From Arcicella rosea (GTDB taxonomy: Bacteria > Bacteroidota > Bacteroidia > Cytophagales > Spirosomataceae), in the NCBI RefSeq assembly GCF_014204325.1, contig NZ_JACHKT010000007.1, positions 1 through 64,000 of the forward strand: a DNA stretch of 64,000 nucleotides. The letters run 5' to 3'. The position numbers and the translations under genes were made by a program. The notes beneath the pieces were generated by a model, which had not been told where the DNA came from, did not search any database, and saw only the letters and a program-made list of their open reading frames with translations. Of this stretch, positions 38,784 to 58,122 are shown piece after piece (position 1 is the first letter of the stretch; every line of letters begins with the position of its first letter).

Positions 38784-38924
38784 TAAAACAGAGAAGAGCG
38801 TCTCGCTCGCAATTGGCTACAAGGAGTGAGTGAGTTATTGACAAATTTAAAATAAAGTGCTGAGTTAATTAATTTTCCAAATATTACTAAATTATGGTTG
38901 AACGGGACGCTCTTTTTACTTTAG

Positions 38925-38962
38925 GGTCGTAGGAACGCTTCGCTAAACCTAACGACCAGACC
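38925..38962 (+). repeat. palindromic repeat R2, copy d
   Basis: GGTCGTAGGAACGCTTCGCT then AAACCTAACGACCAGACC. It ends exactly where the first 42-bp unit of the tandem array begins. Confidence 0.8.
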
Positions 38963-39331
38963 GAACTCCATTGAAGCGAGCTGTTACTCGGATTTTCAGT
39001 GTTGGAACTCCATTGAAGCGAGCTGTTACTCGGATTTTCAGTGTTGGAACTCCATTGAAGCGAGCTGTTACTCGGATTTTCGGTGTTGGAACTCCATTGA
39101 AGCGAGCTGTTACTCGGATTTTCGGTGTTGGAACTCCATTGAAGCGAGCTATTACTCGGATTTTCAGTGTTGGAACTCCATTGAAGCGAGCTGTTACTCG
39201 GATTTTCGGTGTTGGAACTCCATTGAAGCGAGTTGATACTCAGATTTTCTGTATTGGAACTCAATTGAAGCGAGCTGTTACTCGGATTTTCGGTGTTGGA
39301 ACTCCATTGAAGCGAGCTATTACTCAAATTT
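38963..39331. repeat. tandem array of 42-bp units
   Basis: Eight full units and a partial ninth, starting at 38963, 39005, 39047, 39089, 39131, 39173, 39215, 39257 and 39299, each beginning GAACTCCATTGAAGCGAGCT and ending TTTTCAGTGTTG or close variants. There are no unique spacers, so it is not CRISPR. Each unit carries CGAG-N6-CTCG. The seventh unit is the most diverged. Because 42 is a multiple of three, frames stay open on both strands (14-residue repeats), but there is no start signal and no reason to believe they are translated. Confidence 0.93.
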
Positions 39332-55297: not shown

Positions 55298-56473
55298 TTA
55301 ATTTAATAAACCTTCGTTTCTTAGGTATTGCCATACCGTTGAAATATTACAAACTCTTAGGTTTGAACGATACCAATAGTCATCTGCTTGAGGAGTAACT
55401 ATCAAATTTATTTTTGCTCCAAGGTCTTCTATTGCCAGTGTATTGCCTTTGCTAATGTTGGGCGAATTTCCATATTTAATCTCTATCGTAACTTTTACAT
55501 GAGTATTTTGCACCAGAACCAAATCCAGTTCGGCTTTGTCTTTTGTTCTGTAAAAAAAAGGCTCAACATCACTTTTTAGATTAGCGATAATTTGTTGAAT
55601 AACATAGCCTTCCCAAGAATTCCCAATGCCAATATTACCATGCAGCCCTTCAAGATTTTGAATACCCATTAAATGATGCAAAATACCTGTATCTCTGAAA
55701 AAAAACTTAGGAGATTTCACCAATCGTTTACTGATATTTGTAAAATATGGTTTCAAAGTACGTATCAAAAAAGCTGATTCCAGAAAATTAATATAGCTTT
55801 TTACTGTCGGCTGAGAAATATTAAGTGAGTCTGATAGATTCGTATAATTCACTATTCCTCCTTGCAGATTTGTAAGCATACGAAGCATATTTCTCATTAA
55901 TTCAGGCGAAGCAGCCAAACCCAAATTAGGTAAATCTCGTTCGATATAAGTTTGGACAAAACCTCTGAACCAAAAATCCGCCATTTTATCGTTCGGAGCT
56001 AATAAAGCATCAGGAAATCCACCTCTTAACCAATGTTGTTGATAAGAAATATTAGGAGCAATTTCCTGATAATGAAGTCCTTGCATTTCTATATAAATAA
56101 TTCTTCCTGCTAAAGTTTCAGAGCTTTGTCGCAACAAAGACGGTGATGCCGAACCCAACAAAATAAAACGACCCGCCTGCCGATTTTTGTCAATCATCGA
56201 ACGGAGTAAAGGAAACAATTCTGGCATCCTTTGAATCTCATCTAAAATGACAATCTCGTTTTCATGTTCTTGAAAATACAAATCTGGGGCAACTTTAAGC
56301 TTATCTTGGTCAACATAATATTCTAAATCAAGATAAACTGAGGGTTTATTTAATTTAGTCATTAAACTTTTTACTAAGGTCGTCTTACCAACTTGCCTTG
56401 GTCCTAAAATAGCAACAGCAGGTAAGTAAGATAAACTTTCTAATATCTCTGTTTGAATACTTCTCGTAATCAT
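55298..56473 (-). CDS. AAA ATPase with C-terminal DUF4143
   Basis: 391 aa. Walker A GPRQVGKTT with K30, Walker B EIVILDEIQ with D78/E79, sensor region FILLGSASPSLL, a middle winged-helix segment (LSDSLNISQPTVKSYINFLE) and the DUF4143 end with a PD-(D/E)XK-like strand pattern (ELDLVLVQN ... VTIEIKYG). The family is widespread, patchy and of unknown biological role, sometimes discussed as toxin or defence related. It is enclosed by R1 repeats and preceded by a perfect 20-bp inverted repeat. Confidence 0.88.
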   Translation of the reverse strand: MITRSIQTEILESLSYLPAVAILGPRQVGKTTLVKSLMTKLNKPSVYLDLEYYVDQDKLKVAPDLYFQEHENEIVILDEIQRMPELFPLLRSMIDKNRQAGRFILLGSASPSLLRQSSETLAGRIIYIEMQGLHYQEIAPNISYQQHWLRGGFPDALLAPNDKMADFWFRGFVQTYIERDLPNLGLAASPELMRNMLRMLTNLQGGIVNYTNLSDSLNISQPTVKSYINFLESAFLIRTLKPYFTNISKRLVKSPKFFFRDTGILHHLMGIQNLEGLHGNIGIGNSWEGYVIQQIIANLKSDVEPFFYRTKDKAELDLVLVQNTHVKVTIEIKYGNSPNISKGNTLAIEDLGAKINLIVTPQADDYWYRSNLRVCNISTVWQYLRNEGLLN

Positions 56474-56482
56474 ATTTTTATA

Positions 56483-56529
56483 TTATTCGTACAAATCTAA
56501 AAATTAAATTTAGATTTGTACGAATAATT
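56483..56529. promoter_or_regulatory. perfect 20-bp inverted repeat at the DUF4143 promoter
   Basis: The left arm ATTATTCGTACAAATCTAAA (56483-56502) and its exact reverse complement (56510-56529) are separated by AATTAAA. The minus-strand reading of the left arm contains TAGATTTG, a fit to the -7 element, 27 bp from the ATPase start; by symmetry the same box faces the other way. It could be an operator for autoregulation or a 5' mRNA hairpin. Confidence 0.8.
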
Positions 56530-56640
56530 GCCAAAAATTTCTTGTAATTCCAAAAGTGTGAAAAACAAGATAAAAATCCTTTGCCAACAGCATTGGTTGG
56601 TCTTTGTAAGCTCAATAAGATTTGATAAGTAGGAAAATTC

Positions 56641-56748
56641 AATACTCCGTCGGAACGGTATATTTCGTTCCTACGGAACTATGTTTTGGAAATGGTCTTG
56701 TGGTTTTCTACCGATATATTGTCCCTATCGGGACTTTTGTTCTTGGTG
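56641..56748 (+). repeat. dispersed repeat R1, copy 4
   Basis: AATACTCCGTCGGAACGGTA then TATTTCGTTCCTACGGAAC, TGGTCTTGTGGTTTTCTACC, GATATATTGTCCCTATCGGG and ACTTTTGTTCTTGGTG. It appears to be a deleted version of the 50131 copy in which the ACTCCG and GGAACG blocks are fused. Confidence 0.88.
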
Positions 56749-57570: not shown

Positions 57571-57652
57571 CTAAAAGTATCACATTAACCCTAAACATAA
57601 AAATCCAAAGCATCTTTATTACTTAGAATTTATTATACGGTAATTCCTTCCT
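57571..57652 (+). repeat. dispersed 80-bp repeat, copy B
   Basis: Aligned with 3621-3700. It ends in TAATTCCTTCC, which doubles as the start of the first 41-bp array unit. Confidence 0.75.
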
Positions 57653-58036
57653 GCAAGTTGTAGGAGCAAAACATCGAGTGATGATTCCTTCCTGCAAGTT
57701 GTAGGAGCAAAACATCGAATGATAATTCCTTCCTGCAAGTTGCAGGAGCAAAACATCGAGTGATAATTCCTTCCTGCAAGTTGCAGGAGCAAAACATCGA
57801 GTGATGATTCCTTCCTGCAAGTTGCAGGAGCAAAACATTGGGTGATGATTCCTTCCTGCAAGTTGTAGGAGCAAAACATCGGGTGATGATTCCTTCCTGC
57901 AAGTTGCAGGAGCAAAACATCGAATGATAATTCCTTCCTGCAAGTTGCAGGAGCAAAACATCGAATGATAATTCCTTCCTGCAAATTGCAGGAGCAAAAC
58001 ATCGAATGATAATTCCTTCCTGCAAGTTGCAGGAAG
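57643..58036. repeat. tandem array of 41-bp units with palindromic cores
   Basis: Nine full units start at 57643, 57684, 57725, 57766, 57807, 57848, 57889, 57930 and 57971; a partial tenth starts at 58012. Each reads ATTCCTTCCTGCAAGTTGCA, GGAGCAAAACATCGAGTGAT plus one base, with few changes. TCCTGCAA-G-TTGCAGGA inside every unit is a dyad; changes in it give TTGTAGGA, which keeps G-U pairing. In the last piece the stem grows to 10 bp (CTTCCTGCAA / TTGCAGGAAG). With a 41-bp period all three frames are visited in turn; no spacers exist, so it is not CRISPR. Confidence 0.95.
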
Positions 58037-58122
58037 AAATTTAACCCACAAAAGAGAATAGCTTCTAATATTTTCCGCCGTAATTTCCCTGCTCATTTAT
58101 TTAGATTTAATCATCAACTGCC

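Follow-up and report, generated by a model that had tools for sequence, protein, structure and literature searches.

A stretch of 64,000 nucleotides from Arcicella rosea (the window) contains a tandem array in which a palindrome recurs in every unit. Three options were offered for this locus in the original prediction, namely a multi-site protein-binding platform, a structured RNA or a product of replication slippage, and the question that it raises is which of these accounts best for the array and what partner the array might have. The repeat was delineated by Tandem Repeats Finder (TRF) with a period of 41 bp, 95% matches and no indels (Table 1). It comprises ten dyads separated by nine steps of exactly 41 bp each, which bears out the claim of nine and a half near-identical units with a 17-bp palindrome. 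The C to T changes that had been placed in the right arm of units 1, 2 and 6 were correct in the unit listing, unit 9 bears a G to A change at the center of the dyad, and the stem of the last unit spans 10 bp as described originally. Covariance models also matched the minus strand at this last unit (58004-58044). The sequence TTCCTGCAANTTGYAGGA occurs ten times in forward orientation in the whole genome, always inside the window array, and once in reverse orientation as the last, longer palindrome, and its backward-read control produced no occurrences genome-wide. One unit corresponds to 3.9 turns at 10.5 bp per turn, in line with the proposed spacing of near four turns of B-DNA. Two features went beyond the prediction: sister arrays elsewhere and a weaker second dyad half a unit away from the main one. 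The window unit matched its own reverse complement at 26 of 41 positions about both axes (shuffle P = 0.008). This second dyad is not general in that a shuffle P < 0.05 was obtained for only four of ten consensus units of the window family (the window, C30b, C34 and L124, with C34 symmetric about another axis), and a unit from Marinifilum yielded a P value of 0.16. Classification as a CRISPR array was rejected: the linker recurs in every window unit and unique spacers are absent.

Table 1. Positions of the tandem array, its dyads and the neighboring genes in the window.
Feature	Position	Strand	Remarks
41-bp tandem array, 9.6 copies	57641..58034	+	Core CCTTCCTGCA-N3-TGCAGGAGCAAA; TRF, unit listing, covariance-model matches
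Main 17-bp dyad, unit 1, TCCTGCAA-G-TTGTAGGA	57649..57665	.	Recurs each 41 bp up to 58018-58034
Weaker second dyad, CATC-GAGT-GATG	57672..57683	.	Center 20.5 bp (half unit) from main dyad
Last, divergent unit	58016..58036	+	10-bp stem CTTCCTGCAA-G-TTGCAGGAAG; AATT both sides, one mismatch further out
Left neighbor gene, 210 aa	56857..57489	-	Start codon 152 bp from window array; not DUF6261-like
Right neighbor gene, 901 aa	58123..60828	+	Start codon 89 bp from window array

The array sits between two divergent genes. Searches of Pfam and NCBIfam with the left neighbor produced no matches, and the right neighbor is presumably a family 78 glycoside hydrolase/alpha-L-rhamnosidase. Phage and plasmid DNA contained no matches to the window array. 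Elsewhere in the window, a further array of unrelated sequence (42 bp × 8.6) is present at 38963-39325; by eye, the own-genome array L285 14268-14615, which is located 61 bp from a Y1_Tnp (RAYT-like) gene, is akin to it. An AT-rich perfect inverted repeat with 20-bp arms (56482-56528) lies just upstream of a minus-strand gene for a 391-aa protein. Intergenic palindromes also were discerned by eye at 56640-56740 and 38920-38960 (the CGTTCCTACGGAAC type; GTCGTAGGAACGCTTCGCTAAACCTAACGAC), and a RAYT-like gene of the own genome has a form resembling GTCGTAGGAACGCTTCGCTAAACCTAACGAC upstream.

DNA and covariance searches of the own genome uncovered sister arrays at C30:2172-2584 and C10:112565-112810, together with a solo unit at C7:89382. 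The pitch of both sister arrays is also 41 bp. The stem CTGCAA/TTGCAG is replaced by CTCCAA/TTGGAG or a similar form in most C10 units and half of those in C30: one pair is flipped from G-C to C-G, a further pair is flipped from C-G to G-C in C10, and the remainder is mostly paired. Ten cells among the 29 units were changed on both sides of the stem, a value that was reached in none of 500 shuffles, and slid registers produced at most one. Two other pair-count measures were not above shuffles: the number of doubly changed pairs was matched or exceeded in 430 of 500 shuffles and the number of pair types in 385. The relatedness of the units that form the rows inflates counts of this kind.

Comparison with relatives gave a divided outcome for the claim of conservation: none of the seven congeners matched the window array, as a neutral repeat could show, whereas other arrays keep the dyad and the pitch. 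The site behind lepB carries the array in none of these congeners, and it is not a clean empty site because the sequence there differs by eye from that of A. rosea. Two of 222 genomes of the family matched, namely A. rosea itself and G162, a Cytophagales MAG of another genus, in a search in which the filters were stricter and 29 candidates were scored per genome, such that absences are not firm. A sample of the order yielded one match in 390 genomes, again A. rosea; G162 was not among the matches and probably was not drawn. Four of 395 genomes matched in the class sample, three of them as lone look-alikes without tandem neighbors, and matches in G047, G251, G474 and G569 were rejected on these grounds.

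The genome of G162 includes 31 unit matches at eight places on six contigs, with six of the places being arrays of three to eight units. A pattern scan of 84,980 species genomes recovered 15 stretches, seven in JAAFJE01 (G162) and eight elsewhere. Tandem arrays were evident in Aquimarina (41 × 9.9), in the Prevotellaceae MAGs bin76 (41 × 4.4, in two scan stretches that are perhaps one array split by assembly) and bin96 (42 × 3.4), and in a Kiritimatiellae MAG (41 × 3.5) in which the array rests on one 4.1-kb contig that could be mis-binned. Marinifilum has 2.2 copies with a period of 35 bp, and Mesorhizobium and Desulforhabdus have single sites in the letters printed. Core identity between orders was 22 of 22 compared to 4 to 11 of 16 linker letters, although this identity is partly ascertained because most core letters were in the scan pattern. 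The pattern held 17 of the 22 core letters fully and two by half; the period, the tandem order and a preceding GAAACC motif were outside it. This motif is common to Aquimarina, bin76, two of four Kiritimatiellae units and two G162 arrays. The arrays examined are located outside callable genes on either strand, with divergent, co-directional or convergent neighbors. Plasmid DNA had no matches to one of the G162 arrays, and viral contigs had no matches to the pattern. At five of the eight places in G162, the array abuts a second palindromic module (TCATGGCATGACTGACA...) at an identical junction, and the solo unit of A. rosea also has this module at a distance of about 75 bp. With at most one mismatch, the module was matched 13 times in A. 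rosea, 28 times in G162 and one to three times in three of the seven congeners; the other 13 of 18 genomes had no match, and the control produced at most one match per genome. Certain of the module matches represent both arms of a single element. The window array is no minisatellite confined to one place: arrays that share its pitch and differ in stems, linkers and genes are found elsewhere.

Constraint was examined in ten arrays from four genomes. The pitch is 41 bp in 58 of 59 steps, the exception being a step of 40. Following removal of the last units of five arrays, substitutions affected 37 of 896 stem sites compared to 137 of 1536 sites outside the stem and loop (0.041 vs 0.089 per site; Fisher 6e-6). 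When the two mixed-stem arrays were excluded, with four arrays trimmed of the last unit and C34 of its first, the values were 13 of 686 and 81 of 1176, respectively (0.019 vs 0.069 per site; Fisher 5e-7), with 9 of 147 in the loop. Changes elsewhere in the unit are therefore commoner than stem changes by a factor of 2.2 in the ten arrays and of 3.6 in the eight. Among 11 kinds of stem change within arrays, eight produce a G.T wobble on the core strand, two are mismatches and one is A.C, in a tally that skipped seven array-pairs in which the commonest form is no standard pair; the kinds are not all independent because sister arrays in G162 share some. The reduced variability of the stems, the double changes at two stem pairs and the preponderance of wobbles uphold the constraint on the dyad that had been suspected originally.

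A neutral minisatellite would grow by slippage and decay, would retain a perfect dyad without selection through templated correction of quasi-palindromes, and would reach other places by chance transposition or horizontal transfer. The absence of the array from all seven congeners, including behind lepB, its presence in just two of the 222 family genomes and the profusion of other tandem arrays in the own genome accord with this explanation, and templated correction could yield the paired stem changes. Nevertheless, it is fairly unlikely when set against a pitch that is constant although linkers differ between orders, against the rarity of changes in the stem, and against the association with DUF6261 genes that is detailed below.

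If the array were transcribed, the row of hairpins could instead act as an mRNA leader, a stabilizer or a processing site. On the core strand, the eight wobble-type stem changes leave a G-U pair in place, with one A.C in addition, and two window units folded as RNA at -30.9 kcal/mol, which is a single value without a shuffle control. However, several arrays are flanked by convergent genes (C16a, C8, C45a and C34) and the orientation to the neighbors varies, both of which make a structured RNA less likely. Among the arrays upstream of DUF6261 genes, two have the core in the same direction as the gene and one has it in the opposite direction. Moreover, no Rfam family reached its gathering score between positions 56400 and 58300, with MIR475 as the best match (34.4 vs 70). 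This option of the original prediction is improbable on these grounds. The interpretation in the prediction is partly borne out, in that constraint on the dyad and a constant pitch are supported. DNA-level recognition of the dyads on one helix face fits the sequence data better than an RNA leader because the orientation to genes is free, the pitch is fixed near four turns and the stems are constrained.

The dyads also might be REP-type elements, that is, single-stranded DNA hairpins that are recognized and spread by a REP-associated tyrosine transposase (RAYT, Y1/HUH). REP elements with RAYT, including BIMEs and REPINs, are described as extragenic palindromes in many copies, some of which are tandemly reiterated (PMC3733652), and the window family similarly consists of extragenic palindromes in many copies. 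A RAYT-like gene is situated 305 bp from one G162 array, as a partial match only with an NCBIfam score of 55.5 bits against a cut-off of 80, another 42-bp array family in the own genome is 61 bp from a Y1_Tnp gene, and one strand tolerates stem changes of the wobble type. Nevertheless, five of six Y1 loci that were read in A. rosea, G162 and Aquimarina lack the 41-bp core within the locus, where other palindromes are present, and none of the six has the unit as a flanking palindrome. The Y1 gene next to the G162 array is bounded at either end by a long palindrome, beyond which the 41-bp units are found. The seven array-free congeners have 3 to 11 Y1 matches compared to six in A. rosea, and the bin96 genome (G246, 1.8 Mb) has an array and no Y1 matches. 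Furthermore, the units are arranged head-to-tail at a fixed 41-bp pitch, unlike the inverted pairs of BIMEs or REPINs. A RAYT as partner of the array was set back by both flanks and distribution, and a REP-type origin is unlikely. A separate locus in G162 (L148, C34, about 11.9 kb) has a RAYT-like gene amid seven full GTGCAGTCTCCGACTGCAC and eight CAAGTTTTTAAACTTG copies within 3.2 kb and looks like a Bacteroidota REP/RAYT cluster.

The periods of other arrays in the own genome also were surveyed. All seven non-CRISPR arrays with units of at least 30 bp and at least five copies in 549 kb of A. rosea have a period of 41 or 42 bp when 82, 84 and 123 are taken as multiples; three of the seven are places of the window family, comprising the window array and two that were chosen deliberately. 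The expectation of 41 or 42 bp was written down after a second 400 kb had been retrieved and before it was analyzed, and in this sequence six of six such arrays again conformed, with 126 counted as three units. In 400 kb of the congener G007 there was no such array with five or more copies. Contig C6 of A. rosea also bears 43-bp arrays with fewer copies (L198:18991-19102 and L201:3993-4115) that adjoin Rep3 replication initiator genes and probably are plasmid iterons at about 21.5 bp. Iterons beside Rep3 initiators are direct repeats with a pitch of about two turns that are next to the gene for their binding protein; by contrast, the window array has no adjoining initiator gene and its family is found at several places. 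The same contig carries a long CRISPR-looking array (L200:11810-19958 and L201:359-984) in which a 37-bp repeat ends in GGATTGAAAC and the basic period is about 74 bp.

A potential partner emerged from the genes that flank the arrays. The gene directly downstream of the array encodes a DUF6261 (PF19775) protein in bin76, the Kiritimatiellae MAG and bin96 (Pfam E 8e-37, 3e-22 and 1e-21, respectively). These three loci (L114, L124 and L125), in which an array of the window family directly precedes DUF6261, were all found through the array. The Kiritimatiellae and bin76 proteins share 20% identity over 137 residues. DUF6261 genes were not found beside the window array or the other three places of the family in A. 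rosea, nor beside the G162 or Aquimarina arrays, in a search that covered roughly 18% of the A. rosea sequence and 9% of that of G162, such that a distant gene elsewhere is possible.

The association then was approached in reverse from the protein side, by means of a profile of three members over the stretches analyzed, which yielded one gene in the own genome, and protein searches of phage and plasmid records, which led to loci L311, L313, L314 and L315. Weaker protein matches (H2 to H5) involved only the C-terminal extension of one member. Four of five DUF6261 genes reached in this way have an upstream 41/42-bp array, each of unrelated sequence (three in Bacteroidales and one in A. rosea), as judged by TRF for three genes and by dyad positions for L314. 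The A. rosea gene (L271 7723-8430; Pfam E 2e-25) is 114 bp behind a 41 × 5.1 array which was in the TRF listing before the gene was found. On the Parabacteroides side, a 42 × 4.0 array is directly upstream of the gene in P. distasonis L313, and diverged dyads with centers at 2684, 2746, 2767, 2788, 2808 and 2850 precede the gene in P. distasonis L314, where the steps are 20-21 bp or about multiples thereof and a TRF array is absent. A 41 × 3.6 array is directly upstream of the gene in Prevotella nigrescens L315; the annotated start falls inside the array and a later ATG was used. No array is upstream of the fifth gene, L311. That contig was deposited as phage, and a gene that is HU-like by eye precedes its DUF6261 gene; a 23-bp × 2.5 repeat of AGGTAGCTACC (L311:3299-3355) lies upstream of the HU-like gene. 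The P. distasonis records are plasmids according to their source, yet carry core genes and presumably are chromosome pieces. Viral contigs searched for DUF6261 contained none.

Dyads spaced at 41/42 bp were assessed by a comb score, in which each of L313, L314 and L315 surpassed the full set of 79 control genes and of 100 shuffles. The scores for L124 and L125, both of which were found through the array, also exceeded all controls. The L271 score of 22 was equaled or surpassed by one of 79 controls and 24 of 100 shuffles, with the tandem array itself clear, and the corresponding values for L311 (score 19) were 61 of 79 and 74 of 100. TRF arrays with a period of 41-42 bp are upstream of three of the five DUF6261 genes and of none of 82 control genes (Fisher 9e-5), where the controls derive only from the P. 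distasonis and P. nigrescens records and the own genome of L271 is not represented; removal of L271 leaves two of four (about 0.0016, calculated by hand). The control stretches of these two species have several 22-23-bp arrays and none of 38-45 bp. L271 is weaker evidence than the other DUF6261 loci because the own genome is rich in 41/42-bp arrays. Overall, DUF6261 genes adjoin such arrays in genomes other than A. rosea and, in A. rosea, at one place away from the window where the array is of unrelated sequence. DUF6261 is the best candidate partner for arrays of the window type, the window array itself having no adjoining DUF6261 gene. A predicted model of the bin76 protein was all-helical over the first 228 residues and of modest quality (mean pLDDT 69, pTM 0.44). 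A fold search with this model returned 763 matches up to E 10 and none at 0.001 or better, and a DNA-binding domain was not found in DUF6261. Separately, a 42-bp × 7.4 array in A. rosea (L286:11365-11674, C4) is 132 bp upstream of a gene for a 234-aa protein that matched no family above cut-off. The layout is like that of DUF6261 loci but without sequence similarity, and assignment of the gene as DUF6261-like was rejected by sequence comparison.

Known repeat systems offer partial parallels. The BOX elements of Streptococcus pneumoniae (boxA-boxB(n)-boxC) are dispersed intergenic composites in which a tandem core differs in copy number and is able to fold into stem-loops (PMC3049150). Like BOX, the 41-bp core in G162 joins a fixed right module at one junction in five of eight places; unlike BOX, the window family has its host in another phylum, the pitch is strictly 41 bp, and no fixed composite was seen in the own genome. 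The likeness, which is to the tandem boxB core, is one of architecture; the sequences differ as far as looked at, and a link between BOX and DUF6261 is absent from the passages of the source that were available. TAACTGA tandem repeats in Beggiatoaceae, Cyanobacteria and Bacteroidetes are described as patchy, intergenic and possibly horizontally spread, with a seven-base unit without a dyad that mostly is located just before start codons in the main genome studied (PMC4679880). The window-family arrays likewise are patchy, intergenic, tandem and possibly horizontally spread, and differ in the 41-bp unit with its dyad. No description of such arrays was found in the open-licence literature searched.

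The window array thus may be viewed as one member of a dispersed intergenic family of dyad arrays. Each 41-bp unit would present one strong dyad and, in some arrays, also a weaker dyad half a unit off, so that consecutive dyads would face the same side of the helix at intervals of almost four turns (or two). Recognition most likely takes place at the DNA level, by a sequence-specific and probably dimeric protein that reads the dyad. Such recognition would keep the stem and pitch, while linkers would drift and copy number would shift by slippage or recombination. The DUF6261 proteins are proposed as partners of such arrays, each with its own dyad sequence, and the array copy upstream of a DUF6261 gene may be the operator or the founder for dispersed copies. 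In this interpretation, which is tentative and at somewhat less than even odds, the arrays would be dispersed dyad platforms of a BOX/REP-like kind and the DUF6261 proteins their candidate partners, with the operator or founder role included. A broader proposal, possible if rather doubtful, is that DUF6261 and the 41/42-bp dyad arrays constitute an undescribed two-part genetic system in Bacteroidota and at least one Kiritimatiellae MAG, in which each gene would have a private upstream array, the protein would read the dyad at a four-turn pitch, and dispersed copies such as the window array would be its satellite sites for chromosome organization, regulation or spread.

Palindromic tandem repeats between genes are frequent, and most have no explanation. 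The window family has a shared core and pitch in different orders and, on the strength of a single MAG contig, in different phyla; the search that began with the protein led to the same architecture in unrelated sequence. If the proposed partnership is true, it would provide a hint to the function of PF19775 and a testable protein-DNA pair, and may supply a possible reason for the 41-42 bp periods of the long arrays in the A. rosea genome.
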